Source: Pectobacterium polaris
GTDB lineage: Bacteria; Pseudomonadota; Gammaproteobacteria; Enterobacterales; Enterobacteriaceae
Length of the DNA stretch: 64,000 nt
Direction of reading: 5' to 3'
NCBI RefSeq assembly: GCF_002307355.1
Contig: NZ_CP017481.1
Coordinates: forward strand, 2,790,001-2,854,000
Part shown: positions 1,843-48,277 of the stretch, in pieces
How positions within the stretch are numbered: position 1 is the stretch's first letter
Layout of the letters: the number at the start of each line of letters is the position of its first letter
Program-made: the position numbers and the translations under genes
The notes under the pieces: generated by a model
Databases searched by the model: none
What the model was told of the DNA's origin: nothing
The model's input: only the letters and a program-made list of their open reading frames with translations

Positions 1843-3147
1843 TTAGCTATTTTGCGTAGCCTGCTGAGGTTCCTTATAGGCGACGACTTCGTCGGTAGCC
1901 TCTTCCTCATCATCGTGGATGTCTTTTTCCAGACTGGCCACAACAGCGGTAGAGATACTGTTACCGATGACGTTAGTTGCAGTACGACCCATATCCAGGA
2001 ACTGGTCGATACCGATAATCAGCAGGATACCGGCTTCCGGCAGGCTGAACATCGGCAGCGTTGCGGCAACTACTACGATAGAAGCACGCGCTACGCCTGC
2101 CATCCCTTTACTGGTGATCATCAGCGTCAGCAGGATCAGGATTTGCTCAGTAACGCTCAGGTCGATGTTGTAAGCCTGTGCGATAAACAGAATCGCAAAG
2201 GACTGGTACATCATAGAACCGTCGAGGTTGAACGAGTAACCGAGCGGCAGCACAAAGCTGGTGACTTTTTTCGGCACGCCGAATTTGGTCAGCGCTTCCA
2301 TGGTTTTCGGGTATGCAGATTCACTGCTCGCCGTGGCGAAAGCCAGCATGGTAGGTTCACGAATCAGCTTCGCCAGTCTAACAATGCCTTTGCCCAGGAA
2401 CAGGTAACCAACCAGGAACAGAACGCCCCACAGTACGGCCAGACCGAGGTAGAACTCACCGATCAGTTTACCGAAGTCGTAAAGCAGGCCCAGACCTTGC
2501 GTAGTAATCGCGGAAGCGATTGCGGCAAAGACAGCAATAGGGGCCAGCGCCATCACGTAGTCGGTCACGCGGAACATCACTTTGGTCAGTTCTTCGATCA
2601 GGGAGATGATCGTGGTCGCGTGCTTGTTTTTGCCTTTTACATAGGCAAGCGCGGAGCCGAAGAACAGAGAGAATACCAGAATTTGCAGGATCTCATTGTT
2701 CGCCATCGCTTCGACGATACTTTTCGGGAAGATATGGCTGATGAAGCTCTTAAGCGTAAAGCTGTCGGTGTTCAGGCCTGTTGCAATATGCTGTGCGGGG
2801 ATTTCGAGATTCATGCCTCCGCCAGGTTGGAACAGGTTGGCGAAGACCATACCGATGAGCAGGGAAATGAACGAGGCGCTGACAAACCAGATCATCGCTT
2901 TCATACCGATACGACCAACGGCAGAAGAGTTTCCTCCCATGCTTGCCAAGCCGGAAACCAGCGTAGCGAAGACCAGTGGCGCGATGATCATTTTAATCAG
3001 GCGCAGGAAGATATCGGTAACCATGTTGAAATAAGATGCAACTTCTTTTGCTCGACTGCCGTCAAGATATTGATGGCAAGCCCAGCCGATTAATATTCCC
3101 AGGACGATAGCCAAGACTATCTGTACAAGTAACTTCTGCCTTTGCAT
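1843..3147 (-). CDS. Dicarboxylate/amino acid:cation symporter (DAACS family)
   Basis: An inner-membrane secondary transporter of the GltP/DctA family with about eight transmembrane helices and two re-entrant hairpins. The serine-rich hairpin motif TASSE is seen in FATASSESAYPKT, the substrate/cation motif in GYSFNLDGSMMYQS, and the family DMGRTATNVIGN motif near the C-terminus. I chose ATG 3147 (434 aa, MQRQKLL...) because GAGG lies at correct spacing before it. An in-frame ATG 36 nt upstream has no such site. The C-terminus is acidic and soluble. Expected to import acidic amino acids or C4-dicarboxylates with H+ or Na+. It is a paralogue of GltP at 23521-24843, not its orthologue. Neighbours point to an aspartate-like substrate. 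Confidence 0.9.
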   Translation of the reverse strand: MQRQKLLVQIVLAIVLGILIGWACHQYLDGSRAKEVASYFNMVTDIFLRLIKMIIAPLVFATLVSGLASMGGNSSAVGRIGMKAMIWFVSASFISLLIGMVFANLFQPGGGMNLEIPAQHIATGLNTDSFTLKSFISHIFPKSIVEAMANNEILQILVFSLFFGSALAYVKGKNKHATTIISLIEELTKVMFRVTDYVMALAPIAVFAAIASAITTQGLGLLYDFGKLIGEFYLGLAVLWGVLFLVGYLFLGKGIVRLAKLIREPTMLAFATASSESAYPKTMEALTKFGVPKKVTSFVLPLGYSFNLDGSMMYQSFAILFIAQAYNIDLSVTEQILILLTLMITSKGMAGVARASIVVVAATLPMFSLPEAGILLIIGIDQFLDMGRTATNVIGNSISTAVVASLEKDIHDDEEEATDEVVAYKEPQQATQNS

Positions 3148-3813
3148 ATAAACCTCATGTTGATGAATTGATTCAGACAACACAATATTATTGCCGCGTG
3201 ATGGATGGTTGGTGCTTTCCCTGAATACACCAATTCCTCACCCGAACCTGTTATTGGGGTGTTGTGTCTGCCCGCCGATATTACAACGATTCTTGTTTTT
3301 TACATTTTTTTTCTGCGGATTGTTATGTAATTGTGATCTTTGTCATGCGAAAAATGCATGTCCATGTCGCTTGTAATGATAAATAGGGATGTGATGCGCA
3401 GATCGTGTAAATCGTGATATTTCTATTAAGTTATTATTAAACAATGGTTTAAGTTGGTTTTTTGCAGATAAAATCAGATGAGTCAAGGTGTTGAAGTAGT
3501 GTTGCTAATGATATGTGGCGATACATCAATAAAACAGATGGTGAATTACTTAAAGATTAAGTAAAAATAAAAGAACAATTAACGAAAAGTTTATATACAT
3601 GATTTTTTATAAAAAAATTAATTTTTTAATTATTTAAATCGTGACTTTGTTTTTTTGTCTCTATGTTTTATTTTTTCGTTGTTGATCTGAAGTTTAATTA
3701 TTGTTCTATGTGTTTCTGTTTGTAACTAATTGGGCGTTTAGGGCGTTTAAAATGGTGTTTTTTATTTTTTAAACATATGTTACTGATGATTTGAGACCTC
3801 GCTGTTGGTTATT
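3148..3813. other. AT-rich intergenic region, no gene seen
   Basis: About 670 bp of strongly AT-rich sequence between the symporter start and the end of the GntR-type regulator gene. I see no convincing ORF with a ribosome site. The only recognisable element is a weak CRP-like site at 3332-3347, so most of it is probably upstream regulatory sequence for the symporter. Confidence 0.6.
3332..3347. promoter_or_regulatory. Possible CRP site
   Basis: TGTGA-N6-TCATG resembles the CRP consensus TGTGA-N6-TCACA, with a perfect left half and three of five matches on the right. It lies about 185 bp upstream of the symporter start, far for class I/II activation, so this is tentative. Confidence 0.3.
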
Positions 3814-11731: not shown

Positions 11732-13636
11732 ATGTCTATCTGGCAAAAAACGCTTCTCGTGTTGTGTTGGCTGTTGAGTTGTTCAGTGGCAGTTGCTGCG
11801 ACCGATTACGCCTCATTTATTCAAGATATCGAAACTCGGCTGGATAAAACGGCTCAGCTCTATGAGCAGCAAAAGCCGGATGATGCCCGCACCGAAGTTC
11901 AGATGGCCTATTTCGAGGTGTTTGAAAACCTTGAAGGCCCCATTCGTATCAACATTTCCGCGCAAAAAAGCTATCAGTTGGAAGCGACCTTCGGTGAAAT
12001 TCGCCGCATGATTGGCGAAGGAAAGCCGCAGGCCGAGGTACAGGCGAAAATCTCTTGGCTGAAGGGCGAACTGGATGCCGTTCTGCCGGTGCTGTCGGAA
12101 GGGCACAAGCTGGTCGCACAGGAGCAGCACGGTGCCTATGACAATGCTGAGATCGCGCCGTACTGGCAGCAGAGTTTCAAAATTATTGATGACCAACTCG
12201 CGCAGGCTGTGACTGAATATCAGGCTGGCGATTACAAAAAGGCCAGCCTGAGCGTGCAACAGGCGCACTATCAGGGCTTTAAAAACTCTGAAATGGAGAT
12301 GTCGGTCAGGCAGAATCGCTCAGCGCAGCAGGCAGCGTCCATTAATCAACAATTCTCCGCACTGATTACCCTAGCCAGTCAACCCGATCAACTGACGGAT
12401 GTCGCCTATCGGGTTACTACGCTGTTGCAGGATATCGAAGACGTCCTGCCGGGATTGCCGACAACGCGCGACAGCCAGCAGGCGACGGCAACACCTGCCG
12501 TGAACGCTGATAGCGGTGCCGTGCCGGATGCGAATTGGGCGAAAGTCGCCGACGATATTAATCAGGCTATTGCCGCTGCGATCGCGCAGTACCGTCAGGG
12601 TCAGGTCAAACCCGCCATCATGGCGGTGCAGGACACCTATTTCGATCTGTTTGAAGCCACTGGCATGGAGAACAAAATTGGTTCTCGCGATGCGGCGTTC
12701 AAATCGACGCTGGAAGGCTATTTCACCCGTCTGGTGAGCCTGATGAACGCCAAGCAGCCTGCGGAGCAGCTGCAAGGGCAGGCTGACGCGCTACAGCAGG
12801 AACTGGCCAAGGCAGTGACCATGCTGGGCGACGGCGGCGAAACCCACTGGAGCCTGTTGATCTACAGCCTGCTGATTATTGTGCGCGAAGGGCTGGAAGC
12901 CTTGCTGATTGTGGCGGCGATCGTGGCCTATCTGGTGAAAAACAATCAGCAGGACAAGCTGCCGCTGATTCGCCAGTCGGTTTACGTCGCGCTGCTGTGT
13001 AGCGTGATTACCGCCGTTATTTTCCAACTCGTGTTCACCAATTCCGGTGCCAGCCGTGAGCTGCTGGAAGGTATTACGATGCTGATTGCCGTCGTGATGC
13101 TGTTCTTCATGAGCTACTGGCTATTGTCCAAAGTGGAAGCGCGGCACTGGAAGGCTTATCTGGAAGGTAAGCTGTCCCATTCGCTAAGCAGCGGCTCCAT
13201 GATTGGCCTATGGCTAACCAGCTTTCTGGCCGTGTACCGCGAAGGCGCGGAGACGGTGTTGTTCTATTACGCGCTGGTCGGTGATGCCAGCAACATGGCG
13301 GGGCACCTTTCTATCTTGGCCGGGTTTGCCATCGGCTGTGTGATCCTGCTGATCGCCTATTTCGTGATGCGCTATACCATCGTCAAACTGCCGCTGAAGC
13401 CGTTCTTCATGTTTACCGGCTGCTTTATGTACCTGATGGCGTTTGTGTTTGCGGGTAAAGGCGTGCTGGAGCTGATCGAAGGCAAACTGTTTGAACCGAC
13501 GTTGCTGACCGGCGTGCCGGAAATCAGCGGGTTGGGGATTTATCCTTATGTGGAAACGCTGATTCCACAGGGTGTGCTGGTGGTCGCGGCGTTAATCGCT
13601 CTATGGGTGATGCGGCGCAGGGCGTCTGCCGTCTGA
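11732..13636 (+). CDS. FTR1-family iron permease with triplicated periplasmic domain
   Basis: First gene of a seven-gene iron operon, equivalent to FetM of uropathogenic E. coli and the C. jejuni permease beside P19. It starts with a signal peptide (MSIWQKTLLVLCWLLSC...) and then a periplasmic region of about 340 residues built from three related repeats of about 100 residues. Each repeat shows a pattern like A-x2-Y-x3-F-E. About seven membrane helices follow, with the two FTR1 signature motifs REGLEA (near residue 385) and REGAE (near 503) that bind iron in the pore. ATG 11732 fits the signal peptide; an in-frame GTG at 11714 is the alternative. Predicted to move iron into the cytoplasm with P19. 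Confidence 0.9.
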   Translation: MSIWQKTLLVLCWLLSCSVAVAATDYASFIQDIETRLDKTAQLYEQQKPDDARTEVQMAYFEVFENLEGPIRINISAQKSYQLEATFGEIRRMIGEGKPQAEVQAKISWLKGELDAVLPVLSEGHKLVAQEQHGAYDNAEIAPYWQQSFKIIDDQLAQAVTEYQAGDYKKASLSVQQAHYQGFKNSEMEMSVRQNRSAQQAASINQQFSALITLASQPDQLTDVAYRVTTLLQDIEDVLPGLPTTRDSQQATATPAVNADSGAVPDANWAKVADDINQAIAAAIAQYRQGQVKPAIMAVQDTYFDLFEATGMENKIGSRDAAFKSTLEGYFTRLVSLMNAKQPAEQLQGQADALQQELAKAVTMLGDGGETHWSLLIYSLLIIVREGLEALLIVAAIVAYLVKNNQQDKLPLIRQSVYVALLCSVITAVIFQLVFTNSGASRELLEGITMLIAVVMLFFMSYWLLSKVEARHWKAYLEGKLSHSLSSGSMIGLWLTSFLAVYREGAETVLFYYALVGDASNMAGHLSILAGFAIGCVILLIAYFVMRYTIVKLPLKPFFMFTGCFMYLMAFVFAGKGVLELIEGKLFEPTLLTGVPEISGLGIYPYVETLIPQGVLVVAALIALWVMRRRASAV

Positions 13637-22077: not shown

Positions 22078-23031
22078 GTGAACTTTCAGCAACTGAAGAT
22101 TATTCGTGAATCAGCACGGTGCAATTACAACCTGACCGAGGTGGCGAATACGCTGTTTACCTCTCAATCCGGCGTGAGCCGCCACATCCGCGAGTTGGAA
22201 GAAGAGTTGGGGATTGAAATCTTCATCCGGCGCGGCAAACGCCTGTTAGGCATGACCGAACCGGGAAAAGAGCTGCTGGTGGTGGCAGAGCGCATTCTGA
22301 ATGACGCCAGCAATATTCGGCGGCTGGCGAATGTCTTCACCAATAACGACACCGGCCAGTTGGTGATCGCGACCACGCATACGCAGGCGCGTTACAGCCT
22401 GCCGCCGGTGATTAAAGCCTTCCGCTCTCTGTATCCGCAGGTGCGTCTGGTGCTGAATCAGGGCACGCCGGATGAAATCGTGACGATGCTCCATTCCGGT
22501 GAGGCCGATATCGGTATTGCCAGTGAACAGTTGATTAACGATCCCTCGCTGGCGGCGTTCTCCTACTATCGCTGGCACCATTCGGTGATTGTGCCGGAGC
22601 ACCATCCGCTGACGCAGGAACCAGTGATTACGCTGGAAATGCTCAATGCGGAGCCGTTGATTACCTATCGTCAGGGGATCACTGGTCGTTCGCGTCTGGA
22701 CCGCGCGTTTCAGGCGGTGGGCATGTCGCCGGATATTACGCTGAGCGCGCAGGATTCGGATGTGATTAAAACCTATGTCGAGCTGGGGCTTGGGGTGGGG
22801 ATTGTGGCCGATATGTCATTCGATCCGGTGCGAGACAAAGGTCTGGTACGGTTGAATGCCGAGCATTTGTTTGAAGCGAACACGGTCTGGCTGGGGTTAA
22901 AAAAGGGTCAATTACAACGTAACTATGCCTGGAAATTTATTCAGCTGTGTAATACAGAACTGTCGCTGGATGACATTAAAGACAAGGTGTTCTCTGATAA
23001 CGATGAAGCGGTGATTGATTACCAAATCTGA
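22078..23031 (+). CDS. cbl: LysR-family regulator Cbl (sulfonate utilisation)
   Basis: A 317-aa CysB-family LysR regulator. The start MNFQQLKIIRESARCNYNLTEVANTLFTSQSGVSRHI and the end (DIKD...IDYQI) match E. coli Cbl nearly throughout as I know it. Cbl activates genes for sulfonate uptake and desulfonation (tau, ssu) during sulfate starvation, with adenosine phosphosulfate as anti-inducer. The start is GTG 22078 with GGGAG upstream. A terminator follows. In this window it stands a few genes from a taurine/sulfonate-type ABC transporter and a CuyA-like enzyme, which fits a local regulatory role. Confidence 0.93.
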   Translation: MNFQQLKIIRESARCNYNLTEVANTLFTSQSGVSRHIRELEEELGIEIFIRRGKRLLGMTEPGKELLVVAERILNDASNIRRLANVFTNNDTGQLVIATTHTQARYSLPPVIKAFRSLYPQVRLVLNQGTPDEIVTMLHSGEADIGIASEQLINDPSLAAFSYYRWHHSVIVPEHHPLTQEPVITLEMLNAEPLITYRQGITGRSRLDRAFQAVGMSPDITLSAQDSDVIKTYVELGLGVGIVADMSFDPVRDKGLVRLNAEHLFEANTVWLGLKKGQLQRNYAWKFIQLCNTELSLDDIKDKVFSDNDEAVIDYQI

Positions 23032-23056
23032 CTGATAGCGCGGTTTCCTAACCCGA

Positions 23057-23096
23057 TGCCCAGCCAGCGTTTTTTCTGACTGGGCAGGTGTTTTCC
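23057..23096 (+). terminator. Terminator of cbl
   Basis: TGCCCAG-C-CAG (23057-23067) pairs with CTG-A-CTGGGCA (23076-23086), one mismatch, followed by GGTGTTTTCC. A second small hairpin, TCGCGAT/ATCGCGA, follows at 23108-23128. Confidence 0.65.
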
Positions 23097-23325
23097 TTTC
23101 GATTTTGTCGCGATTTTTTGTATCGCGATACCCGCCGTTTTCTGTGCTCGATTCAGCATAAATATGGTTTATCGTGCCGATAATCTGCTTGATCTGATCG
23201 TGCTGCAATAGTAGCATTCCCGCCATAACAATAACTTATGTCTGAATTTTTGTTAAGCGATACAAATACTTGTGCATTTTTATTGAATAATTATGTTAAT
23301 GATTTTGGTATCGCACTAGAACATT

Positions 23326-23404
23326 TATCCTAAATAATTCGAGTGGCAGGGCAAAACGTGTGCATTTTGAATCGCGCACATGCAGCTTGAAGTATGACGG
23401 GGTA
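23326..23404. repeat. ERIC element, internally deleted
   Basis: The left end (ATCCTAAATAATTCGAGTGGCAG) and right end (GCACATGCAGCTTGAAG then TATGACGGGGTAAT) are kept; the central palindrome is replaced by about 20 unrelated bases. Total about 79 bp. It lies 117 bp upstream of the gltP start. Confidence 0.85.
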
Positions 23405-23520
23405 ATCCATCAGACATCCTTCTCACTAGTCAGTCACCTCCACGTTGATTTTTTCGGTTCGTATTGCGCCGGAGTCGCGCTAGCGCCATGTTCGTGATGG
23501 CGGGGAGTTTAAAACGGAAA

Positions 23521-24843
23521 ATGACGATGAAAACACAAAAAATCAGCCTTGCCTGGCAAATCCTTATCGCGTTGGTTCTGGGTATTGCACTCGGTGCCGT
23601 GCTGCATGAACAGCAAGAAAGCCGCCAGTGGCTTATCAGCAATATTCTTAGCCCAGCAGGCGACATCTTTATCCGCCTGATTAAAATGATTGTTGTCCCG
23701 ATCGTGATTGCCACGTTGATTGTTGGGATTGCGGGCGTAGGGGATGCAAAGAAGCTCGGGCGCATCGGCTTCAAAACTATCCTCTATTTTGAAATCATCA
23801 CGACGGTAGCGATTATCCTTGGCATCACGCTGGCGAATGTCTTCCAGCCGGGTCACGGCATCGACATGTCGACGCTGACCGCCGTGGATATCTCGCAGTA
23901 CCAAAAGACCACCGAGCAGGTGCAGAGCGGTTCGCACAGTTTGGTGGGAACGGTGCTGTCGCTGATTCCGCCGAATATCTTCGCCGCGATGGCACACGGT
24001 GAAATGCTGCCGATTATCTTCTTCTCGGTATTGTTTGGTCTGGGGCTATCTTCGTTGCCGAAAGATCACCGTGAACCACTGCTGAACGTCTTCCGCGGCG
24101 TGTCGGAAACCATGTTCAAGGTGACGCACATGATCATGCGTTACGCGCCTGTTGGGGTGTTTGCGCTGATTTCCGTCACGGTGGCCAACTTCGGTTTTGC
24201 GTCGCTGTGGCCGTTAGCCAAGCTGGTTATGCTGGTTTATGCCGCGATTTTCTTCTTCGCGCTGGTGGTGCTCGGTATCGTCGCACGGCTGTGTAAGCTG
24301 CGTATCACCATCTTGATCCGTATCCTCAAAGATGAGCTGATCCTCGCGTACTCCACCGCCAGTTCCGAAACCGTGCTGCCGCGTATCATCGAAAAAATGG
24401 AAGCCTATGGCGCCCCGAAGTCGATTACCAGCTTTGTGGTGCCGACCGGTTACTCCTTTAACCTCGATGGCTCTACGCTGTACCAGAGTATTGCAGCGAT
24501 CTTCATCGCGCAGCTGTACGGCATCGAACTGTCGATTGGGCAGGAAATCGTGCTAGTGCTGACGCTGATGCTGACGTCTAAAGGCATTGCTGGCGTTCCG
24601 GGCGTGTCGTTTGTCGTACTGCTGGCGACGCTGGGAAGCGTCGGTATTCCGTTGGAAGGTCTGGCATTTATTGCGGGTGTTGACCGTATCCTCGACATGG
24701 CGCGTACCGCGCTGAACGTGGTGGGGAATGCGCTGGCGGTGCTGGTTATTGCCAAGTGGGAAAACCAGTTCGATGAGCAGAAAGCGCGGGCCTATGAGCG
24801 TGAGCTTAAAGGGATAAGCACGCAGCCTGCCCAGCAGGGATAA
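23521..24843 (+). CDS. gltP: Glutamate/aspartate:proton symporter GltP
   Basis: A 440-aa DAACS-family transporter that matches E. coli GltP almost residue for residue over long blocks (SPAGDIFIRLIKMIVVPIVI, AYSTASSETVLPRIIEKMEA, GYSFNLDGSTLYQS, DMARTALNVVGNALAVL). It imports L-glutamate and L-aspartate with protons, and cysteate is a known competing analogue of this substrate class. ATG 23521 (MTMKTQKISLAWQ) is chosen over the 19 codons of open frame upstream; ATG 23527 is equally possible. It is preceded by a deleted ERIC and followed by a strong terminator. Confidence 0.94.
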   Translation: MTMKTQKISLAWQILIALVLGIALGAVLHEQQESRQWLISNILSPAGDIFIRLIKMIVVPIVIATLIVGIAGVGDAKKLGRIGFKTILYFEIITTVAIILGITLANVFQPGHGIDMSTLTAVDISQYQKTTEQVQSGSHSLVGTVLSLIPPNIFAAMAHGEMLPIIFFSVLFGLGLSSLPKDHREPLLNVFRGVSETMFKVTHMIMRYAPVGVFALISVTVANFGFASLWPLAKLVMLVYAAIFFFALVVLGIVARLCKLRITILIRILKDELILAYSTASSETVLPRIIEKMEAYGAPKSITSFVVPTGYSFNLDGSTLYQSIAAIFIAQLYGIELSIGQEIVLVLTLMLTSKGIAGVPGVSFVVLLATLGSVGIPLEGLAFIAGVDRILDMARTALNVVGNALAVLVIAKWENQFDEQKARAYERELKGISTQPAQQG

Positions 24844-24870
24844 TCCCAGCCTATTCTAAATAGCCTATGC

Positions 24871-24908
24871 AACGGGCGCATCGAGTGATCGAGGCGCCCG
24901 TTTCTTTT
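24871..24908 (+). terminator. Terminator of gltP
   Basis: AACGGGCGC (24871-24879) pairs with GCGCCCGTT (24894-24902), followed by TCTTTTC. Convergent with the dehydrogenase gene ending at 24925. Confidence 0.8.
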
Positions 24909-24924
24909 CTTGCTCTAATACTGA

Positions 24925-26028
24925 CTATGCCGCGTGGCTATCTATCACGCGGGTTTCTAATGTTTGCGTGCGCCACAGTGCCCGTTCAATACTCTCGGCA
25001 TCTGTTGCAAAAGGAAGTCGCGCGGCAATTTTCGGTGCGATTTTCACGTTCTGTGCAATGCTTTCAACCAGCTGTGGGCGTTCGCTCAGGCCGAGGGCGT
25101 TCAGCGTGATCGGGCTACCGTAGCGGCGTAACTGGGCAAACAGCTCTTCGCGGTCGGCGTCGTTATCGTGTTCCAGAAACGCCTGCACGGCCAGCCCAAA
25201 ACCCACTTTCTCGCCGTGCAGCCAGTCATGCAGCTCTGGCAGGCGCGTCATGCTGTTGTGAATTGCATGGGCGACGCCGATGCGTGGCACTTCATCTTTC
25301 ATGCTGTTCGCCAGACCCGCCAATGCGATAACGGCATCGATCACGCTGCGTAGGGCTGGCGTGACCAGACCTTTCTCATTATCCGCAATGGCCTGCTCAC
25401 CATGCGTATTGAATGTCTCTACGGCCAGCCGTGCGGCCTGCGCTTTGAGTGCCAATGCCAGCCCGCTATCGCCGTGACGCAGATACGGTTGAAACTCGTA
25501 CCATTTTGCCAGTGCATCCACGATACCGGCTTTGAGATAACGCGAAGGACTGTGTGTGATGATCTCGCTGTCCACCAGTACCCACACCGGTAAACGTGTT
25601 AATGGGAATGGCCCATTATGCGCACCGCTGTCGCTATAAATCACACTGATCGGTGACCAGGCGGCGCAGGTGGCCGCAATGGTGGGCACGGCAATGACGG
25701 GGATCTGCCCCAGAATGTCGCCGACGGCTTTGGCGACATCCAGCACGCGCCCGCCGCCAATGCCTAAAATCAGTTCCGCACCGAATGCGCGCGCCTGTGC
25801 AGTCAGCGCTTCTATTGCGGGTTTGGTGCAATCACCCGGTAAAAATTCGACCTGATACCGTAAGCCATATTCACGGAGGCTGTGTTCGACGGCATCCGAC
25901 GTCGTTTTCCATGCCTGTGGGCTGGTAATAATCAATACGGTGTTGGCGTAGGGCGCTGCATATTCGCCGACAGAACGGATGACGCCATCACGATTCAGAT
26001 AGGTTTGTGGCGCTTGTATTGCAATCAT
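24925..26028 (-). CDS. Iron-containing alcohol dehydrogenase family protein (GldA/HcxA-like)
   Basis: A 367-aa oxidoreductase of the Fe-ADH/glycerol dehydrogenase fold. The NAD-binding region has GIGGGRVLDVAKAVGD, followed by the family PTIAATCAAWSPISV motif. Metal ligands are expected in GIVDALAKWYE (Asp), GVAHAIHNSM (His) and WLHGEKVGFG (His). It is most like E. coli HcxA (YbdH), which reduces 2-oxo acids to hydroxy acids. It lies 128 bp after the ABC permease on the same strand and may belong to that operon. If the locus serves organosulfonates, a sulfopyruvate/sulfolactate substrate is possible, but that is inference. Confidence 0.82.
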   Translation of the reverse strand: MIAIQAPQTYLNRDGVIRSVGEYAAPYANTVLIITSPQAWKTTSDAVEHSLREYGLRYQVEFLPGDCTKPAIEALTAQARAFGAELILGIGGGRVLDVAKAVGDILGQIPVIAVPTIAATCAAWSPISVIYSDSGAHNGPFPLTRLPVWVLVDSEIITHSPSRYLKAGIVDALAKWYEFQPYLRHGDSGLALALKAQAARLAVETFNTHGEQAIADNEKGLVTPALRSVIDAVIALAGLANSMKDEVPRIGVAHAIHNSMTRLPELHDWLHGEKVGFGLAVQAFLEHDNDADREELFAQLRRYGSPITLNALGLSERPQLVESIAQNVKIAPKIAARLPFATDAESIERALWRTQTLETRVIDSHAA

Positions 26029-26156
26029 GTTTGCGATCTCTCATCTCTGTGGGAAAAGATAAATCAGTTGTAGCAGCGATGCCGAACGCCGCAAAAGAAC
26101 AATTCTGGCTATGAATGGGCAGATTTCGCATAACCAGAACGGTCGTAACGCCCAAG

Positions 26157-27023
26157 CTAGCGCTGCATTCCCCAGCGTTTTATCGTGATCTTTTCGAGGG
26201 TAGAAAACACCAACCCTTCAACCAGTAGCCCGATAATGATGACGGAAGCCAGCCCGGCAAAAACGCGGTCAGTATAAAGCTCATTACGGTTCTGGAAGAT
26301 GTACCAGCCCAAACCGCCGTTGCCGCTGGAGGCACCGAACACCAGTTCAGCCGCGATCAGGGTGCGCCAGGCAAACGCCCAGCCGATCTTCAGGCCGGAG
26401 ATAATCGATGGTAGCGCCGCAGGAATCAGGATGGCATTGATGTAGCGAAAGCCCGTCAGGCCGTAGTTGCGGCCCGCCATACGCAGCGTTTCCGAGACGC
26501 CGAGGAAGCCAGAGTAGGTGTTCAGCGCCATCGGCCACATCACGGAGTGGACGAGCACGAATACCAGACTTTTTTCTCCCAGCCCAAACCACAGCAGTGC
26601 CAACGGCAGTAATGCAATCGCGGGTAGTGGATTGAACATGGAGGTTAATGTGCCTAAGAGATCGCGCCCGAAGCGGGTGGAAACCGCCAATGCGCTGAGG
26701 GCGAGAGCCAGCAGGCTACCAATGACATAACCTTTCAACAGCGTACCGAGCGAAATCACCATCTTATGCGGTAATTCACCACTGGCGACGTCATCACGAA
26801 AAGCCTGAAACGTTTGCAGAAAGCCGGGCAGCATCAGATCGTTGTTTTGCCAGCGAGCGGCGAACTCCCATAGGATAAGCAATCCGGCTAGCAGCACCAG
26901 CTTGCGCAGCCAGGTCTGATTCCACAGACGCGTCGTCAGCGGCAAAGGCTTGGTGAGCGTAAAATCTTTCAGTGGTGCCAGTTCACGCTGATACTCTGGC
27001 CGCACGGGGGGCTGAATGCTCAT
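26157..27023 (-). CDS. Sulfonate/taurine/nitrate-type ABC transporter permease
   Basis: A 288-aa inner-membrane permease with about six helices and the EAA-type coupling loop (AGRNYGLTGFRYINAILIPAALPSIISGLK) of the SsuC/TauC family. ATG 27023 (MSIQPPVRPEY) has AAGG at correct spacing and lies inside the 3' end of the ATPase gene (41-nt overlap). A 15-codon extension upstream is less likely. It forms a transporter with the ATPase (26983-27849) and binding protein (27906-28928). Exact substrate not readable; sulfonates are favoured by context. Confidence 0.9.
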   Translation of the reverse strand: MSIQPPVRPEYQRELAPLKDFTLTKPLPLTTRLWNQTWLRKLVLLAGLLILWEFAARWQNNDLMLPGFLQTFQAFRDDVASGELPHKMVISLGTLLKGYVIGSLLALALSALAVSTRFGRDLLGTLTSMFNPLPAIALLPLALLWFGLGEKSLVFVLVHSVMWPMALNTYSGFLGVSETLRMAGRNYGLTGFRYINAILIPAALPSIISGLKIGWAFAWRTLIAAELVFGASSGNGGLGWYIFQNRNELYTDRVFAGLASVIIIGLLVEGLVFSTLEKITIKRWGMQR

Positions 27024-27849
27024 AGGGTTTACCTTGCGTGGATGTGACGGGTGATGGTGCGTCGACATCGGTTGGAAAAAGAAGATGGTGAATACGTCGT
27101 GCGGTGGTTTGAAAGGCTTCGCTGCCTTGATCGCTCAGCGCAAATTGATGGCAGTTGATTTCTGCTCGCACACGACCCGGATGCGGTGAGAGCAGCAAAA
27201 TCCGGCTGCCGACAATCAGCGCTTCCTCAATCGAGTGGGTGACAAACAGCAGCGTGAAGCGTACCTCTTCCCACAGCGCCAGCAATTCTTCCTGCATTTT
27301 GCGGCGGGTCAGCGCATCCAACGCGGCGAAAGGCTCATCCATGAGCAGCACTTTCGGCTGCATAGTTAGCGCCCGCGCGATGGCGACGCGCTGCTTCATC
27401 CCACCGGATAACGTATGCGGATAGGCATCGGCAAATTTCGCCAGCCCGACCTTATCGAGAAAATAGCGGGCGCGTTCCTCTGCTTCAGCTCGTGTCGCCT
27501 GACGGCTGGCAACCAGCGGAAACAGCGTATTCTCCAGTACGGTTTTCCACGGTGGCAGTTGGTCAAATTCCTGAAAGACCATGATGCGATCCGGCCCCGG
27601 TTTTGTGACGCGCTGACCGTCGAGGCGGATTTCACCGTCTACCGGCGACAGAAAACCGCCGATAGATTTGAGCAAGCTGGATTTGCCGCAGCCGGAAGGC
27701 CCTAACAGCACAAAGCGTTCGGCGGGGAAGACGTCAAAACTTACATCATGGGTGGCGCGTACTAGACTGCGCCGCGTTCGGTATTCCAGTCCGACGCCGT
27801 CAACCTGCAACAGCGGCTGGTCAATCGTGCCGTGAGAAGGGTGTGTCAT
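26983..27849 (-). CDS. Sulfonate/taurine/nitrate-type ABC transporter ATPase
   Basis: A 288-aa ATPase with Walker A GPSGCGKSS, signature LSGGMKQRV, Walker B VLLMDEPFAALD and H-loop FVTHSIEEA, the standard SsuB/TauB pattern. About 30 extra C-terminal residues (DVDAPSPVTSTQGKPYEHS...) go beyond the usual end and overlap the permease start. It is 56 bp downstream of the binding-protein gene in one operon. Confidence 0.92.
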   Translation of the reverse strand: MTHPSHGTIDQPLLQVDGVGLEYRTRRSLVRATHDVSFDVFPAERFVLLGPSGCGKSSLLKSIGGFLSPVDGEIRLDGQRVTKPGPDRIMVFQEFDQLPPWKTVLENTLFPLVASRQATRAEAEERARYFLDKVGLAKFADAYPHTLSGGMKQRVAIARALTMQPKVLLMDEPFAALDALTRRKMQEELLALWEEVRFTLLFVTHSIEEALIVGSRILLLSPHPGRVRAEINCHQFALSDQGSEAFQTTARRIHHLLFPTDVDAPSPVTSTQGKPYEHSAPRAARVSA

Positions 27850-27905
27850 GCTTGTTCTCCTGCATAGCGACGAGATTCTCGTCGAATGGGCGTGACCTTG
27901 AGCAT

Positions 27906-28928
27906 TTAGCTGCCCGGCTGGTCGTGGATTTCAGCGAAGAAATAGTCTTTCCAAGAGGTGGCTTTGTTTTTCAGTACGCCAAGCTGGTGCAGCTTTTCAG
28001 CATAAACGTAGGTACGTTCTGGGGTGATCGTGAAATCGATCTCGGGATCGGCGACGATGCGTTTCACCAGTTCTGGGTCCAGCTTCGATTTCTCTACCCG
28101 AATGTAGGTGTCGGCCGCCGCGGCTTTATCTGCCTTGACGATCTGCGATGCTTCCTTCAGTGCTTCGTAGAAGGCGCGGTAGGTTTTCGGGTTCTCATCA
28201 TGGAATTTCTGCGTGGTATAAAGCACGTTGAACGTTGCCTGACCGCCCAGCACGTCATAAGAACTCAGAATTTTGTGCACATTGGCGTGTTCCAACGCCT
28301 GATATTGGAACGGTGGGCTGGAGAAGTGGGTATTAATTTCGGAACCGCCAGCGATAAGTGCCGCGCTGGCATCGGGATGCGGTAGGCTGACGGAAATCTT
28401 ATCGAAGCGTTTGAAATCCTCCACGCCATAGAGCTTCGCAGTTTCGATTTGCAGCGTGCGAGACTGGAAGCCAACACCAGCAGCAGGTACAGCGATACGA
28501 TCTTTATCGCTCAGGTCGCGAATGGTTTTCACCGCTGGGTTATTGCTGAGTAAATAGTTAGGCATGGAACCGAGTGAGGCAATGGCTTTTACATTCTGAC
28601 GGCCCTGAGTGCGATCCCATACGGTCAGCATCGGCGGAACACCGGCAGAGGCAACATCTAAGGCACCGGACAGCAGTGCTTCGTTGATCGCCGTTGCGCC
28701 AGAGAGCGTACGCCAGTCTACCTTGATATCCAGCCCTTGCTGCTTACCGTGCTTCTCTATCAGGTTTTGGTCGCGCACCACATCCAGAATCAGGTAACCA
28801 ATACCAAACTGCTGCGCAATGCTGATGGTGCCTTCCGCATTCGCGCCAAAGGCCGCTAACGTCAGGCCAATCATGGCGGCAAGGCGTGTGAAACGCGTCG
28901 ATTTTTTCGTGGGTAGTGAGTGATTCAT
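27906..28928 (-). CDS. Periplasmic binding protein, SsuA/TauA family
   Basis: A 340-aa exported solute-binding protein with a signal peptide (about 1-31, cleavage after GANA). The two-lobed NMT1/SsuA-like body starts TISIAQQFGIGYLILDVVRD and includes ALLSGALDVASAGVPPML. The family binds sulfonates, taurine, nitrate or similar small anions. It is the first gene of the operon with ATPase, permease and possibly the Fe-ADH-family enzyme, and is divergent from the Ldh_2-family gene across a 372-bp AT-rich gap. Confidence 0.9.
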   Translation of the reverse strand: MNHSLPTKKSTRFTRLAAMIGLTLAAFGANAEGTISIAQQFGIGYLILDVVRDQNLIEKHGKQQGLDIKVDWRTLSGATAINEALLSGALDVASAGVPPMLTVWDRTQGRQNVKAIASLGSMPNYLLSNNPAVKTIRDLSDKDRIAVPAAGVGFQSRTLQIETAKLYGVEDFKRFDKISVSLPHPDASAALIAGGSEINTHFSSPPFQYQALEHANVHKILSSYDVLGGQATFNVLYTTQKFHDENPKTYRAFYEALKEASQIVKADKAAAADTYIRVEKSKLDPELVKRIVADPEIDFTITPERTYVYAEKLHQLGVLKNKATSWKDYFFAEIHDQPGS

Positions 28929-29300
28929 TATCGTTTTCTCTCATTATTAATGGTAATCGATCAAGGTGGTAAATAGGGAATAACGACACGTTAATATTTC
29001 AATGAATAACATTTATTCAACAAATAACAATTTCCCAACAAATTAACGTATTTAAGGAAATAACGTGCCGTAAATAATGTATTAAAGAAGGAATCCTATT
29101 TTCTTGTCGCTTTATTGATAAAGTGTTTTTTGGAATAAGTTAGAATAAATACGCTTTTAAAACGGAATGAGTGCAGGAAAACAAGCAAATAACCGCCTTA
29201 GCTAAATATTCGCTATGGATAGTTTTATTTTTCACTTATGGATAAAAACCGGCGCGTTATAGTGGGCACTACATTTCTATTTCGGTATACAGAGAATTAT
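28929..29300. other. AT-rich divergent promoter region
   Basis: The region between the SsuA-like gene and the Ldh_2-family gene. It is very AT-rich with many ATAA/TTAT runs, the kind of sequence CysB-family proteins bind, but I cannot define a specific site. An ATG at 29238 in frame with the dehydrogenase has no ribosome site and is not used as start. Confidence 0.45.
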
Positions 29301-30323
29301 ATGCCTGTTTTTAGCCATCATTATTTACGTGATTATTTGCGCGACCGGCTGACGGATAATGACGTGAACGCGTCCATTGCAGGAACGGTTGCGGATAATC
29401 TCGTCGAATCCAGCCTGAAAGGGCATGACTCGCACGGCGTCAGCATGCTGCCGCGCTATATCGACGCTATTCAGGAAGGTGGGCTTTCTCCCCACGCACA
29501 GGCGGAAAAAACGCTGGATTTCGGTCCACTGATTTCGTTTGACGGGCAGCAAGGCTTTGGTCAGGTGGTAGCAAAGCAGGCGTTGGCGGAAGGCATTGTG
29601 CGTGCACAAACACATGGTCTGGCGGTGGTGAGTTTAGCTAATGCCCACCATCTGGGCCGCATTGGTGCGTGGGCAGAACAGGCGGCGGAGGTCGGGCTGG
29701 TGTCACTGCATTTTGCCAATGTGTATACCAAACCAGTGGTGCTGCCGTGGCATGGCCAGCAGGCGCGTTTCGGGACCAACCCGTTCTGTGCCGGTATTCC
29801 GGTGGAGCAGGATGACCCCGTCATTCTGGATTTTGCCACCAGCGTGATTGCGGGTAACAAAGCCCGTATCGCGTGGAATGAGGGCAAACAGGTTGCGCCT
29901 GGCTGCATTGTCGATAACGACGGTAATCCGACGGTGGATCCCCGCTGGCTGATGGAACAACCTCTGGGGGCGCTACTGCCGTTTGGCGAACATAAGGGGT
30001 CGGGGCTTTCGCTGGTTTGCTCGCTGCTTGGCGCGGCGCTGACCGGAGGGAAAACCGAACGCACGGCGAAGGGCGAGGGCAAACAAATTATTAACAGCAT
30101 GCTGTCGATTTTAATCGATCCGCAGAAATTAGGCGGTGCGGCAACCTATCAGCAGGAGATTCCTGCTTTATTAGAATGGGTGCGTCAGTCCCGTGATGAC
30201 GATGCGTTATTACTGCCGGGCGATAAAGAAAAACAAACCTATCGCCAACGACTGGAGAACGGCATTTTTGTCGATGATGTTAGCTGGGGGCAACTCTCTT
30301 ATTTAAATAATAAAGTGGCCTGA
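29301..30323 (+). CDS. Ldh_2-family (malate/L-lactate/sulfolactate-type) dehydrogenase
   Basis: A 340-aa NAD(P)-dependent dehydrogenase of the Ldh_2 family. Conserved blocks are LKGHDSHGVSMLPRYI, NAHHLGRIGAWAEQAA, RFGTNPFCAGIP and GEHKGSGLSLVCSLLGAALTGGKT. The family includes malate dehydrogenases, E. coli HcxB (YbiC), ureidoglycolate dehydrogenase and (R)-sulfolactate dehydrogenase ComC. ATG 29301 is chosen because AGAG precedes it and the protein then starts at the usual family point. It is divergent from the sulfonate-type ABC transporter and upstream of the CuyA-like gene. Oxidation of sulfolactate to sulfopyruvate is an attractive but unproven role. Confidence 0.85.
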   Translation: MPVFSHHYLRDYLRDRLTDNDVNASIAGTVADNLVESSLKGHDSHGVSMLPRYIDAIQEGGLSPHAQAEKTLDFGPLISFDGQQGFGQVVAKQALAEGIVRAQTHGLAVVSLANAHHLGRIGAWAEQAAEVGLVSLHFANVYTKPVVLPWHGQQARFGTNPFCAGIPVEQDDPVILDFATSVIAGNKARIAWNEGKQVAPGCIVDNDGNPTVDPRWLMEQPLGALLPFGEHKGSGLSLVCSLLGAALTGGKTERTAKGEGKQIINSMLSILIDPQKLGGAATYQQEIPALLEWVRQSRDDDALLLPGDKEKQTYRQRLENGIFVDDVSWGQLSYLNNKVA

Positions 30324-30395
30324 TAGTGGGGTAGTTGTTTTTTAATTTATTTAACTGATTTTTATTTATCTCAATACAGAAAAATAGATCCGATG

Positions 30396-30417
30396 TAGTG
30401 CACATATAGTGCACATA
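30396..30417. repeat. Perfect 11-bp tandem repeat upstream of the CuyA-like gene
   Basis: TAGTGCACATA occurs twice back to back (30396-30406, 30407-30417). Each copy contains the GTGCAC palindrome, and the period is about one helical turn. It lies 94 bp before ATG 30511 and 72 bp after the dehydrogenase stop, the likely promoter zone of the cuyA-racemase pair. Probably an operator. Confidence 0.55.
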
Positions 30418-30510
30418 AAATCGTGCCATAAATACGCACGCTGATGTTGCCTATTTCGTATCGCGGTATATCGTCACCTTAATCTGTAACCCGTATTCCA
30501 GGAGAATATT

Positions 30511-31524
30511 ATGCACCTTGCTCGATTCCCCCGTTTATCTCTGGGGCATTTTCCCACGCCGCTTGAGGCATTACCGAACCTGTCTGCCTATCTGGGTGGC
30601 CCGACGATTTACATCAAGCGCGACGACGCCACAGGGCTGGCGACCGGCGGCAATAAAACCCGCAAACTGGAGTTCCTGCTTGCTGATGCGCAGCAGCAGG
30701 GAGCGGATGTCATCATCACGCAGGGTGCGACGCAGTCTAACCATGTGCGACAAACCATTGCGGCGGCGGCAAAACTGGGGCTGAAAACCAAAGTGTTGCT
30801 GGAAAAACGCGTTGAGGACTACGGCGAAGACTACCAGCGCTCCGGTAACGTGCTGCTGGATAACCTGCTTGGTGGTGAAATTATCGATCATCTGCCCGCA
30901 GGTACGGATATGCAGCAGGCGATGGAAACGCTGGCAGAATCACTGCGTAAAGAAGGATTGAAACCTTATGTCATTCCCGGCGGCGGCTCCAGTCCGGTCG
31001 GCGCGCTGGGTTATGTTGCCTGCGCGGAAGAGTTGTTATTTCAGTCCAGCCAGCAGCGTCTGCGCATCGATCATATTGTCCATGCGACGGGTAGCACGGG
31101 AACACAGGCGGGGTTGGTGACCGGACTGACGGCAACACACAGCCAGATTCCACTGTTAGGTATCAGCGTCAGAGCGCCGAAAGCGAAGCAGGAAGAGAAT
31201 GTTTATGCGTTAGCACAGCGCACCTGGCAACTGCTGGGAATTCCGGGCGAATTGCCGCGTAGTGCTGTACAGGTGAATAGTGATTATGTCGGCAAAGGAT
31301 ACGGTATTCCAACCGAGGGAACGCTGGAAGCACTCAGACTGTTGGCTCAGTTGGAAGGGATTTTGCTCGATCCGGTCTATTCCGGCAAAGGAATGGCGGG
31401 GCTGATCGATCTGATTCGTCAGGGACGCTTTCGCGCGGATGAAAATATTGTCTTCATCCATACTGGCGGCTCGGCAGGGCTATTTGGCTATCGTCAACTA
31501 TTCGAACAAACGGCTGCGCAATGA
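30511..31524 (+). CDS. L-cysteate sulfo-lyase / D-cysteine desulfhydrase family (CuyA-like)
   Basis: A 337-aa PLP enzyme of the ACC deaminase/D-cysteine desulfhydrase family. The PLP lysine is K49 in [25 protein letters not shown] contacts substrate, and the phosphate loop is [11 protein letters not shown]. The opening [19 protein letters not shown] and the N-terminal third resemble L-cysteate sulfo-lyase CuyA of Ruegeria more than E. coli DcyD, as I recall them. CuyA converts L-cysteate to pyruvate, ammonia and sulfite; DcyD acts on D-cysteine giving sulfide. The stop overlaps the racemase start by 4 nt. Family sure; substrate uncertain. Confidence 0.85.
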
Positions 31525-32237
31525 GTACGACGCTGATTGGCGTGTTGGGCGGGATGGGGCCGCTGGCGACGGTCGACCTGTTACATAAGATTATTGAAGA
31601 AACGCCTGCCAGTTGCGATCAGGATCATGTGCCAGTAGTTGCCTGGAACGTGCCGCAGATTCCCGACCGCCAACAGGCGCTGGCAGGCACCGGTGAATCG
31701 CCGCTGCCGACGCTACTGCACGCCATCCGGCAGCTTAATCGCTTATCGGTTAGCCATATCGTGGTGCCGTGTAATACGGCACACCACTGGTTTGATGCGT
31801 TGGCTGAGGCAAGCGATGCACCGCTGCTGCACATTGCTGACGCTACGCTGCACGCGCTGACAGAGGTAGATGAGGCAAAGGCATCGCCACGTAAAATCGG
31901 GCTGATTGCGACTCACGGGACGCTAAATGCCGGATGGTATCAGCAGCGTTTCGCCGCGCAGCAAGGTGCCGAAACGGTGGTGCCGAACGAGCAGGAAATG
32001 GCGGCGCTCTTTGTACCGGGGTGCTATGCGGTAAAACGGGGAGAATTACAGCACGGCGGACGCTTGCTGGATCAGTTAGCGGCGCAACTGGTGGAGAGGG
32101 GAGCCGAACGACTGGTACTAGCCTGCACGGAAGTCCCTCCGGCGCTGGAGGTTGTGTCGTCACGCTGGCGGGACATCAGTATCGATCCAACACGCGCGCT
32201 GGCACAGGCCTGCGTTCGCATCTGGCAACAGAGATAA
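31521..32237 (+). CDS. Aspartate/glutamate racemase family protein
   Basis: A 238-aa cofactor-independent racemase. It has the [15 protein letters not shown] signature and catalytic cysteines C84 (PCNTAHHW) and the one in LACTEVP. Its ATG overlaps the CuyA-like stop (ATGA), so the two are translationally coupled. A racemase coupled to a stereospecific lyase suggests conversion of the wrong enantiomer of the substrate (cysteate, cysteine or similar) to the one the lyase uses. It is a paralogue of the gene at 1-598. Confidence 0.88.
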
Positions 32238-32268: not shown

Positions 32269-32282
32269 TGCAGAGAACCGAA

Positions 32283-33623
32283 TTACAGGAAGCCGTACAT
32301 CGCGGCAAACACCCACCCAAAGACGCAGGATGTGCTCACACCGATCAGACCCGGTAGAATGAAGCTGTGGTTGATAACGAAACGACCGATTTTGGTGGTG
32401 CCGGAGCGGTCAAACTGGATAGCCGCCAGATCGCTTGGGTAGGTCGGCAGAATGTAGTAACCATAACAGGCTGGTGCAGACGCCACGATATACGCGGGAT
32501 CCACCCCGATTGCCAGCGCAACGGGCACAATCGCCGCCAGCGCCGCCGCCTGCGAGTTCACGAACTTGGACACAATCAGCAGGATAATGGCGTAAGCCCA
32601 AGGGTAGACTTTCACCAGTGAACCGAGTGTGCCTTTGATTTCTTCCAGATGCGCGCCGAACATGGTTTCCGCCATCCAGGCGATACCGTATACCGCGACG
32701 ATGGCAATCATCCCTGAACGGAATACCTCATTCTTCGAGATCGAGGACGGATTGGTTTTGGTCGCAATAATGATGATGGCACCAGACAGCAGCATAAACA
32801 TCTGAATGACCAGCACCATCGATAGCGGCTTACCAGCAAAGACCGGACGCAGTTCTTCAACGGCACCCAGAATCGCTACCGCCGCGATGGTTGCCAGAAA
32901 GATCCACATGGCGACCCAGTTACTGCGCGGCAGTTTTCTGTCGAGCAGCGTGGCAGTATCGCCATACACATACTGTTTGTTTTCTGGGTCAGCGATGAAT
33001 GTCTGAAAGTCTTCATCTTTGTCCAGATCCTTGCCGCGGAACCAGCTGAAAATCCCAATCGCCAGAATACCCAGCAGGGTAGAGGGAATAGTAATCGACA
33101 GCAGATCGAGGAAGCCCAGATGCTTGCCCTGGAAGGTGAAATTAGCCAGCATGGCAACCAGCGACACCACCGCAACAGAGACCGGGCTGGCTATAATCCC
33201 CATTTGAGCGCCGATCGAACTAGCGGCCATTGGTCTTTCAGGACGGATATTATTCTTGATGGCGACATCATAAATAATCGGCAGAATGGTATACACCACG
33301 TGGCCTGTACCACAGAGGATGGTCAGAATACAGGTGACGAACGGCGCGATAATCGACACGTATTTCGGGTTACGCCGCAGCATACGCTCTGCGATTTGCA
33401 GCATTACATCCAGCCCGCCCGATGCCTGAAGCGTTGCCGATGCGGCCACCACAGCAATGATGACCAGCATAACGTCAACGGGCGGTTTACCCGGTTGTAG
33501 TTTAAAAATAAAGACCAGAATAACAAGTCCAATCCCGCCTAATAAACCCAGCGCGATCCCGCCTTTTCTTGCCCCGTAAAAAAGGCAGATCAAGACAATG
33601 ACTAATTGAATGATGAAGTCCAT
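32283..33623 (-). CDS. dcuB: Anaerobic C4-dicarboxylate transporter DcuB
   Basis: A 446-aa transporter, the same length as E. coli DcuB and nearly identical to it in long blocks ([60 protein letters not shown]). It exchanges fumarate and succinate across the inner membrane during anaerobic fumarate respiration. ATG 33623 gives the E. coli start point ([10 protein letters not shown]); 14 more codons upstream are open but unlikely. An ERIC lies 25 bp upstream and a near-consensus FNR site 230 bp upstream, fitting anaerobic induction. Confidence 0.94.
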
Positions 33624-33647
33624 AGTAGCCCCATTACATTGCTCAAT

Positions 33648-33772
33648 ATACCCGTCATACTTCAATCTGCTTGTGCGTTAGCTGCCTTTACTCACCTCAG
33701 TCACTTACCTGAGTAAGCTCCTGAGGATTCGCTCAGTTGCTGCCTTCACGCAACTCGAATTATTTAGGGTAA
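33648..33772. repeat. ERIC element, full length, upstream of dcuB
   Basis: About 125 bp with intact ends (ATACCCGTCATACTTCAATC; AACTCGAATTATTTAGGGTA) and the core palindrome (TCACTTACCTGAGTAAGCTC). It stops 25 bp before the dcuB ATG, so it is probably transcribed in the dcuB 5' leader. Confidence 0.92.
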
Positions 33773-45118: not shown

Positions 45119-46543
45119 ATGCACGATAAATTACTCATAGAAGGCAAGCTGGTCGCGGGGAAAGGCGAGGCGTTAGCGGTATTTAATCCTGCCACAGGAG
45201 AGCAAATTGCCGCCATTGCGCAGGCCGATCTGCACCAGGTTGATGCAGCCGTGCTGGCCGCGGAGTCCGCTTTTGCACACTGGGGCCAGACCACGCCGAA
45301 AACGCGTGCGACGCTGCTACTACAGATTGCCGATGCCATCGAGGAAAACGCCGAGACGTTTGCCGAGCTTGAATCGCTGAACTGCGGTAAGCCCTACCAT
45401 GCGGCTCTGAATGATGAAGTGCCTGCGGTCGCCGATGTGTTTCGCTTTTTTGCCGGCGCGGCGCGCTGTCTGAGCGGTTCGGCGGCGGGAGAGTATCTCG
45501 AAGGGCACACCTCAATGATCCGGCGCGATCCAGTTGGCGTGGTGGCGTCCATCGCCCCGTGGAATTACCCGCTGATGATGGCGTCGTGGAAACTGGCACC
45601 GGCGCTGGCGGCGGGAAACTGTGTGGTGTTGAAACCGGCGGAGCAAACCCCGCTGACTACATTCTATCTGGCGCATCTGCTGGCGGAGATACTGCCTGTT
45701 GGCGTGGTGAATATTGTGTTCGGGCGTGGAGCGGATATCGGCGATGCGCTAACGGGACATGAGAAAGTGAATATGGTGTCGCTGACCGGTTCGATTGCGA
45801 CTGGCGCGCATATTCTGTCGCATACCGCCGCGAGCGTAAAACGGACGCATATGGAGCTGGGTGGCAAAGCACCAGTGATTGTCTTCGACGATGCTGATAT
45901 CGATCAGGTGGTTGATGGGATCCGCAGTTTCGGTTTTTACAATGCGGGGCAGGATTGTACCGCTGCCTGTCGGCTGTATGTCCAACGTGCGATTTACGAT
46001 GAGGTCGTAGAAGCATTAGGAAAAGCGGTGGCGACGCTGAAAATGGGCGATCCACACGATGAAACCACCGAGCTGGGGCCATTGATTACCGAGCCGCAGC
46101 TGGAACGCGTGATTGGCTTTGTCGAACGCGCCAAAGCGTTACCGCACATTACGGTGGTGACCGGTGGCGAGCGGGTAAAAGGGCAGGGATTCTACTTCCA
46201 GCCTACGGTGCTGGCGGGGGCAAAGCAGGAAGACGAAATCGTCCAGAAAGAGGTGTTTGGGCCGGTTATCTCCATCACGCCATTTGACGATGAAGCGCAG
46301 GTGATTGGCTGGGCTAATGCCTCGCATTACGGGCTGGCCTCGTCGGTCTGGACGCGCGATATCGGGCGGGCGCACCGTCTGGCTGCGTGCCTTCAGTACG
46401 GCTGTACCTGGGTAAACACCCACTTCATGCTGGTGAGCGAAATGCCACACGGCGGACAGAAGCTATCTGGCTACGGCAAGGATATGTCGATGTACGGTCT
46501 TGAGGATTACACCATCGTGCGCCATATCATGATCCGGCACTGA
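45119..46543 (+). CDS. patD: Gamma-aminobutyraldehyde dehydrogenase
   Basis: A 474-aa aldehyde dehydrogenase matching E. coli PatD (YdcW, 474 aa) across its length: [52 protein letters not shown]. The catalytic Cys is in [10 protein letters not shown] and the general base Glu in HMELGGKAP. It oxidises 4-aminobutanal to GABA with NAD, the second step of putrescine degradation through PatA, whose gene is next downstream. AAGG lies at correct spacing before ATG 45119. Confidence 0.94.

Positions 46544-46828: not shown

Positions 46829-48277
<1,449 letters not shown>

Follow-up and report, generated by a model that had tools for sequence, protein, structure and literature searches.

Gene content and boundaries of the island

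The window analysed in this work is a stretch of 64,000 nucleotides from Pectobacterium polaris (NZ_CP017481.1, positions 2,790,001 to 2,854,000), which sits inside a single contig of 4,826,824 bases. At approximately 24.91-32.27 kb, it carries an island composed of a gene for an Fe-ADH family dehydrogenase, the ATP-binding cassette (ABC) transporter genes abcP, abcA and abcS, and the divergently oriented ldh2, cuyA and cuyB, which are predicted to encode a 2-hydroxyacid dehydrogenase, a D-cysteate sulfo-lyase and a cysteate racemase. Together, these genes may provide a route for the use of C3 sulfonates as sulfur source. All nine genes named in an initial annotation of this region proved to be real open reading frames (ORFs) at or close to the coordinates it gave; a subset of 28 window ORFs was scanned against NCBIfam or Pfam models.

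In four empty sites, the alignment with the window breaks off at 24908-24912 on the left and resumes at 32269-32281 on the right, and these breakpoints, together with the gene content of cuyA-negative species, delimit the unit as Fe-ADH-abcPAS plus the divergent ldh2-cuyA-cuyB. Of 25 Pectobacterium species, 18 have a CuyA above the model cut-off, and all 25 have Cbl. The seven species without CuyA have cbl and dcu in place (7/7 each) and gltP in six cases; five of them lack any island gene between the flanks, and two retain the Fe-ADH gene only. Thus, the flanking genes represent chromosomal backbone and are neighbours of the island rather than its members. They include cbl (22078-23031, plus strand), coding for a CysB-family regulator (572.7 bits with the Cbl NCBIfam model, cut-off 491), gltP (23521-24843, plus strand; GltP NCBIfam 865, cut-off 638), which probably starts with the ATG at 23521 rather than the TTG at 23464, and, on the right, the gene of a Dcu-type C4-dicarboxylate carrier recognized by NCBIfam (32283-33665, minus strand). 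Cbl and GltP, which had initially been considered parts of a sulfonate module, were therefore rejected as module members for Pectobacterium. Acerihabitans (L246) provides a counter-observation to cbl being a mere neighbour, as it has cbl directly beside cuyB in a different layout without gltP or dcu, the only other layout among the loci fetched in which cbl stands beside cuyAB.

In Samsonia, Brenneria and Lonsdalea, cuyAB, ldh2 and abcS are likewise located between dcu and cbl, which suggests that the island is probably old in the Pectobacterium group and has been lost repeatedly. The island genes are under purifying selection, with dN/dS values of 0.005-0.087 against five congeners. Locus L117 ends within the island, and the completeness of its Fe-ADH, abcP and abcA genes was not judged.

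The lyase CuyA and the racemase CuyB

The pyridoxal phosphate-dependent lyase encoded by cuyA (30511-31524, plus strand) passes the NCBIfam model NF052482 for CuyA (D-cysteate sulfo-lyase) with 557.9 bits (cut-off 450). The window protein is 96-99% identical to proteins of P. carotovorum, P. odoriferum, P. polaris, P. parmentieri and others, 94% identical to that of P. cacticida, and 89% identical to that of Pectobacterium sp. B1J-3. The initial annotation had proposed a phylogeny of this protein as a check on its function. In a tree of 59 rows, none of which was by name a biochemically tested CuyA or a 1-aminocyclopropane-1-carboxylate deaminase, all 19 DcyD rows fall on one side (100/100) and the window lyase is grouped apart from them with CuyA proteins. 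The 18 Enterobacteriaceae CuyA rows form one clade (98/99), and three rows slightly under the CuyA cut-off are placed among the CuyA rows. Moreover, the CuyA rows of this family have a GGNKTRK motif, whereas DcyD proteins show GGNKLRK.

The lyase could alternatively be a D-cysteine desulfhydrase which mainly destroys D-cysteine, with the racemase and the dehydrogenase serving cysteine or mercaptolactate turnover. This is the name given by the depositors to the structures PDB 7ysk and 7ysl, and a visual count in the alignment shows the window protein to match 7ysk at 331 of 337 residues; literature searches for this Pectobacterium structure gave no helpful paper. The window protein also scores above the cut-off of TIGR01275, a broad subfamily model named D-cysteine desulfhydrase family (333 versus 289), and no further close DcyD-like gene was found in the P. 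polaris genome. However, the three specific D-cysteine desulfhydrase models are all missed (326 versus 429, 316 versus 610, and 312 versus 469), and the CuyA score, the tree placement and the motif argue for a sulfo-lyase, as do the partners described below, a TauD-like dioxygenase and a Tau-like ABC transporter. We consider the desulfhydrase function improbable, and the assignment of the protein as CuyA, a predicted D-cysteate sulfo-lyase, is supported.

The downstream gene cuyB (31521-32237, plus strand) overlaps cuyA by four bases (the cuyA stop codon ends at 31524), and its product passes the CuyB model NF052483 (261.1 versus 190). It directly follows cuyA on the same strand in all 31 Enterobacteriaceae loci; outside this family, cuyB lies on the same strand within 100 bases of cuyA in 8 of 19 loci. 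Cys84 (in PCNT) and Cys202 (in ACTE) are presumably the catalytic residues. The model comparison and the gene overlap support a CuyB-type racemase translationally coupled to CuyA. A second Asp/Glu-type racemase (1-598, minus strand), truncated by the window edge and sharing 35% identity with CuyB, also passes the CuyB cut-off (220.9 versus 190), so this model alone is not specific. Near the left-edge racemase, there is a gene for a DctA/GltP-type symporter (1843-3183, minus strand).

In the initial annotation, the combination of the lyase with Cbl and an amino-acid racemase was considered not to be a described cysteate pathway. However, the CuyA-CuyB route has been published: according to PMC11382572, which cites JBC 2024, 107371 (its reference 20) for the pathway, CuyB is a racemase yielding D-cysteate, and this is the substrate that CuyA prefers. 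Hence, the core of the island is not new. The window pair resembles the known one in that both enzymes score over the NCBIfam cut-offs and the racemase gene is coupled to the lyase gene; the island differs from it by the joined abcSAP, Ldh_2 and Fe-ADH genes, and by lacking the second ABC transporter (ABC2) found beside cuyAB elsewhere.

The ABC importer and its dioxygenase partners

The importer genes comprise abcP (26157-27023, minus strand; permease, BPD_transp_1), abcA (26983-27849, minus strand; ATPase, ABC_tran) and abcS (27906-28928, minus strand), which codes for an NMT1_2-type substrate-binding protein and predicted sulfonate binder; abcP and abcA travel with abcS. The initial annotation called this transporter SsuA/TauA-type. 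It is indeed an ABC importer, but the label is only loosely right, since AbcS misses the SsuA/TauA binding-protein cut-offs (68 versus 163.5 and 29 versus 304) and all the ABC proteins score under every sulfonate cut-off shown.

The loci of the best 80 abcS matches, to which all fractions given here for abcS loci apply, include 23 from Enterobacterales and 57 from other orders. A TauD-like dioxygenase (at least 60% identity to that of L045) is encoded in 32 of the 57 non-Enterobacterales loci, and all 32 belong to the 36 loci of this group that contain abcA. Because the importer so often stands beside a TauD-like dioxygenase outside Enterobacterales, its substrate is probably a sulfonate. Known sulfonate importers of this kind are found in the TauABCD and SsuEADCB systems, in which ABC import supplies sulfonates as sulfur source under the control of Cbl in E. 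coli. The island shares with these systems ABC import of a likely sulfonate for sulfur, but its binding protein is below the Ssu and Tau cut-offs and it would use lyase chemistry, not an oxygenase. Among the Pseudomonas loci, L221, L226, L239 and 17 further ones have abcS orthologues (74-80%) without abcA in the locus, which are possible orphan binding proteins.

Neither ldh2 nor cuyA was present in any of the 57 non-Enterobacterales loci, and CuyA above the cut-off was found in none of the 10 abcS genomes tested from Pseudomonas and betaproteobacteria (CuyA was checked genome-wide for 20 of the 80 loci). In L045 (G087), the TauD-like dioxygenase gene (11736-12623, plus strand) lies between abcS and abcA, and the genus also has ldh2 and cuyAB, showing that both chemistries can occur together. 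It is conceivable, although we hold it with rather less than even confidence, that the abcSAP importer is paired interchangeably with a TauD-like dioxygenase in pseudomonads and some betaproteobacteria or with an Ldh_2-transaminase-CuyB-CuyA route in plant-associated and other enterobacteria, giving them sulfolactate as a sulfur source via cysteate.

The Ldh_2 and Fe-ADH dehydrogenases

The ldh2 gene (29301-30323, plus strand), with a likely start at MPVFSHHYL, encodes a protein of the Ldh_2 family, whose members are 2-hydroxyacid dehydrogenases. It passes PRK10098 (malate/lactate/ureidoglycolate dehydrogenase, 415.4 versus 336), a type which we take to be that of YbiC, and retains the GHDSHG motif. 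The initial family assignment thus stands, but the protein does not reach the cut-off of the L-sulfolactate dehydrogenase model NF040650 (189 versus 500), and its proposed function as a sulfolactate dehydrogenase comes from its occurrence profile. A second Ldh_2 gene is present elsewhere in the genome (42% identity).

The Fe-ADH family dehydrogenase (24925-26028, minus strand) is GldA-like, being nearest to glycerol dehydrogenase yet below the model cut-offs (255 versus 336 and 209 versus 700). Its stretches GIVDALAKW, VAHAIHN and HGEKV align with glycerol dehydrogenase structures and presumably contain the metal ligands. Where glycerol dehydrogenases have TDAP, with an Asp that we take to be glycerol-binding, it reads TCAA, which makes glycerol an unlikely substrate.

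The likeness to GldA raises the alternative that the Fe-ADH opens 2,3-dihydroxypropanesulfonate (DHPS), the sulfonated analogue of glycerol, and that Ldh_2 takes the product on. The same TDAP replacement speaks against it, as does the distribution of the Fe-ADH, which occurs with at least 50% identity in only 12 of the 23 Enterobacterales abcS loci. The genome has no HpsN candidate beyond a single gene of PF00815 (the family of HpsN and HisD); this gene is presumably HisD, which makes DHPS entry via HpsN unlikely. We therefore regard a DHPS route as very improbable.

Co-occurrence of the island genes

To follow these genes across the family, 99 Enterobacteriaceae genera were surveyed with one genome each, evenly drawn from a larger group (38 genomes are smaller than 3 Mb). 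CuyA was present over the cut-off in 13 genera, abcS in 10 (E value 1e-30 or better, one broken), and an ldh2 orthologue in eight (58-100% identity, next best 48%). The eight ldh2 genera are exactly those with both an unbroken abcS and CuyA above the cut-off, and in all eight ldh2 is located within 3 kb of abcS. The probability of such an 8/8 match by chance, if the genes were independent, is 7.5e-9 for the 99 genera and 4.4e-7 for the 61 with genomes of at least 3 Mb, both values ignoring kinship. In G043 and G067, cuyA and the ldh2-abcS locus are located on separate contigs, and in G048, which also belongs to the eight, ldh2 contains an in-frame stop. Beyond the eight, G028 represents a ninth genus, with abcS and ldh2 in broken pieces and CuyA only as fragments below the cut-off. 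The ldh2 gene is present in 20 of the 23 Enterobacterales abcS loci and cuyA in 15; where ldh2-abcSAP stands without a neighbouring cuyA (five genomes), CuyA is always encoded elsewhere in the genome. The gene order varies among genera. The survey sets overlap (G064 and L212 are the same genome, and several Pectobacterium loci are in two sets). The association of CuyA with the ldh2 and abcSAP modules is apparently new.

Apart from P. polaris, 17 Pectobacterium species carry CuyA, and 13 of these have a second importer, ABC2 (SBP2, permease and ATPase), between ldh2 and cuyA; it is absent from the window and the remaining four. In L110, the one species scanned, its proteins are nearest to the TauA, TauC and TauB models, below the cut-offs. 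Just upstream of the window cuyA, an 18-base relic (30472-30489, plus strand) encodes RHLNL-stop and matches the 3' end of the ABC2 ATPase gene abcA2 in species keeping ABC2, which points to removal of the window ABC2 by deletion. ABC2 is located beside cuyAB in nine of the 13 CuyA genera (in the drawn genome of eight, and in Pectobacterium through its other species), and in the other four genera the neighbours of cuyAB include abcSAP and ldh2.

These distributions bear on a simpler possibility, namely that cuyAB handles imported cysteate only and that the role of abcSAP, Ldh_2 and Fe-ADH lies with a different organosulfur compound or hydroxyacid used in the same niche. In agreement with it, five of the 13 CuyA genera lack both ldh2 and abcS and carry the Tau-like ABC2 beside cuyAB instead, and abcSAP occurs without CuyA in eight Pseudomonas genomes tested. 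It accords poorly with the finding that every ldh2 genus has CuyA even when the genes are on different contigs, and with the five further ldh2-abcSAP genomes. We consider this division of labour rather doubtful.

A proposed route from sulfolactate to sulfite

We lean, with slightly better than even confidence, to the interpretation that the island is an assimilatory C3-sulfonate module taking sulfolactate through cysteate to sulfite. Sulfolactate is favoured as the substrate because 3-sulfolactate is a 2-hydroxyacid that gives the CuyA substrate after oxidation and transamination, and because the TauD partners of the importer point to a sulfonate. The substrates of all the proposed steps are deduced from protein families, gene linkage and co-occurrence. 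In this route, abcSAP would import a sulfonate, most likely 3-sulfolactate, which Ldh_2 would oxidize to sulfopyruvate; a housekeeping transaminase would then produce L-cysteate, CuyB would convert it to D-cysteate, and CuyA would cleave the latter to pyruvate, ammonia and sulfite. The Fe-ADH may be an optional extra, perhaps for the other sulfolactate enantiomer. Sulfite is reduced via the normal cysteine pathway; the sulfite formed by CuyA would be reduced in the cell in this way, so that no exporter would be needed. Of the components of the C3-sulfonate module outlined in the initial annotation, CuyA, the racemase, Ldh_2 and the ABC importer are borne out by gene order and co-occurrence, and Cbl and GltP are not.

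Several observations weigh against this interpretation, including the second racemase, the depositors' name of 7ysk, the AbcS and Ldh_2 scores below the sulfonate and sulfolactate models, and the five CuyA genera without ldh2 and abcS, which have been mentioned above. In addition, Ldh_2 is closer to PDB 2g8y (298 bits), presumably E. coli YbiC, than to the solved L-sulfolactate dehydrogenase 2x06 (146 bits), and in G048 ldh2 has an in-frame stop and the Fe-ADH gene is split. L209 has abcS and CuyA without ldh2, and L212 and L256 have abcS without CuyA and without ldh2. Outside Enterobacterales, the four loci with abcA but no TauD-like gene are from Herbaspirillum, and 21 of the 57 loci have abcS without abcA (one of them, L199, is cut by a contig end). 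Finally, the block scans of loci and genome did not tie the conserved promoter blocks to Cbl.

A similar order of reactions, from sulfolactate through sulfopyruvate and cysteate to CuyA, is described in PMC11382572 as a branch in marine DHPS degraders (Ruegeria pomeroyi). According to the same paper, R. pomeroyi uses HpsNOP and SlcD, whereas the island is accompanied by no HpsN candidate and has a PRK10098-type Ldh_2; its predicted use is also as a sulfur source rather than a carbon source. Our literature search, which had poor coverage of most subscription journals, found no recognizable treatment of an enterobacterial sulfolactate-CuyA route. The same search gave no paper on the enterobacterial combination of abcSAP with Fe-ADH and an Ldh_2 of the PRK10098 type, nor on its exchange for TauD in other bacteria. 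If correct, the enterobacterial sulfolactate route would assign a function to the importer and the dehydrogenase and show how the already known lyase pair is fed.

The divergent promoter region

The abcS-ldh2 intergenic region (28929-29300) has 372 bases in the window versus 295-326 in 19 other aligned sequences, and an extra A/T-rich stretch accounts for the difference. The alignment of 20 sequences (L114 was left out) revealed a conserved block (29126-29148, plus strand) as a possible regulator site. Its 20-base core has no further copy in the genome at up to three mismatches, and the block was not found near the other sulfonate loci of this genome (eight loci, two overlapping) at up to six mismatches. 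Scanning the window gave one weak match at 34375 besides the block itself, and among 13 other loci matches were detected only in L041 and L048, both having the same module. Promoter and terminator scans showed no excess over shuffled sequence. Cbl, although not part of the island, may activate it in trans.

Other genes of the window

Contrary to the initial annotation, which reported the window to be free of transaminase genes, a gene for putrescine aminotransferase is present at 46844-48277 (plus strand; 974.5, cut-off 659), although its product is no obvious cysteate enzyme; it is preceded by an aminobutyraldehyde dehydrogenase gene (45119-46543, plus strand). In L052, similar aldehyde dehydrogenase and aminotransferase genes were seen by eye just after cuyB. 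The segment 34488-42747 (minus strand) contains genes for a HasA heme-binding protein and a TonB-dependent receptor, along with type I secretion-like genes recognized by eye, and represents a haem-acquisition locus. An arylsulfotransferase (ASST) domain protein is encoded at 61996-63789 (minus strand), and just past the window end there are a permease-like ORF (by eye) and a gene for an SsuA-family binding protein (L053, 609-3596).

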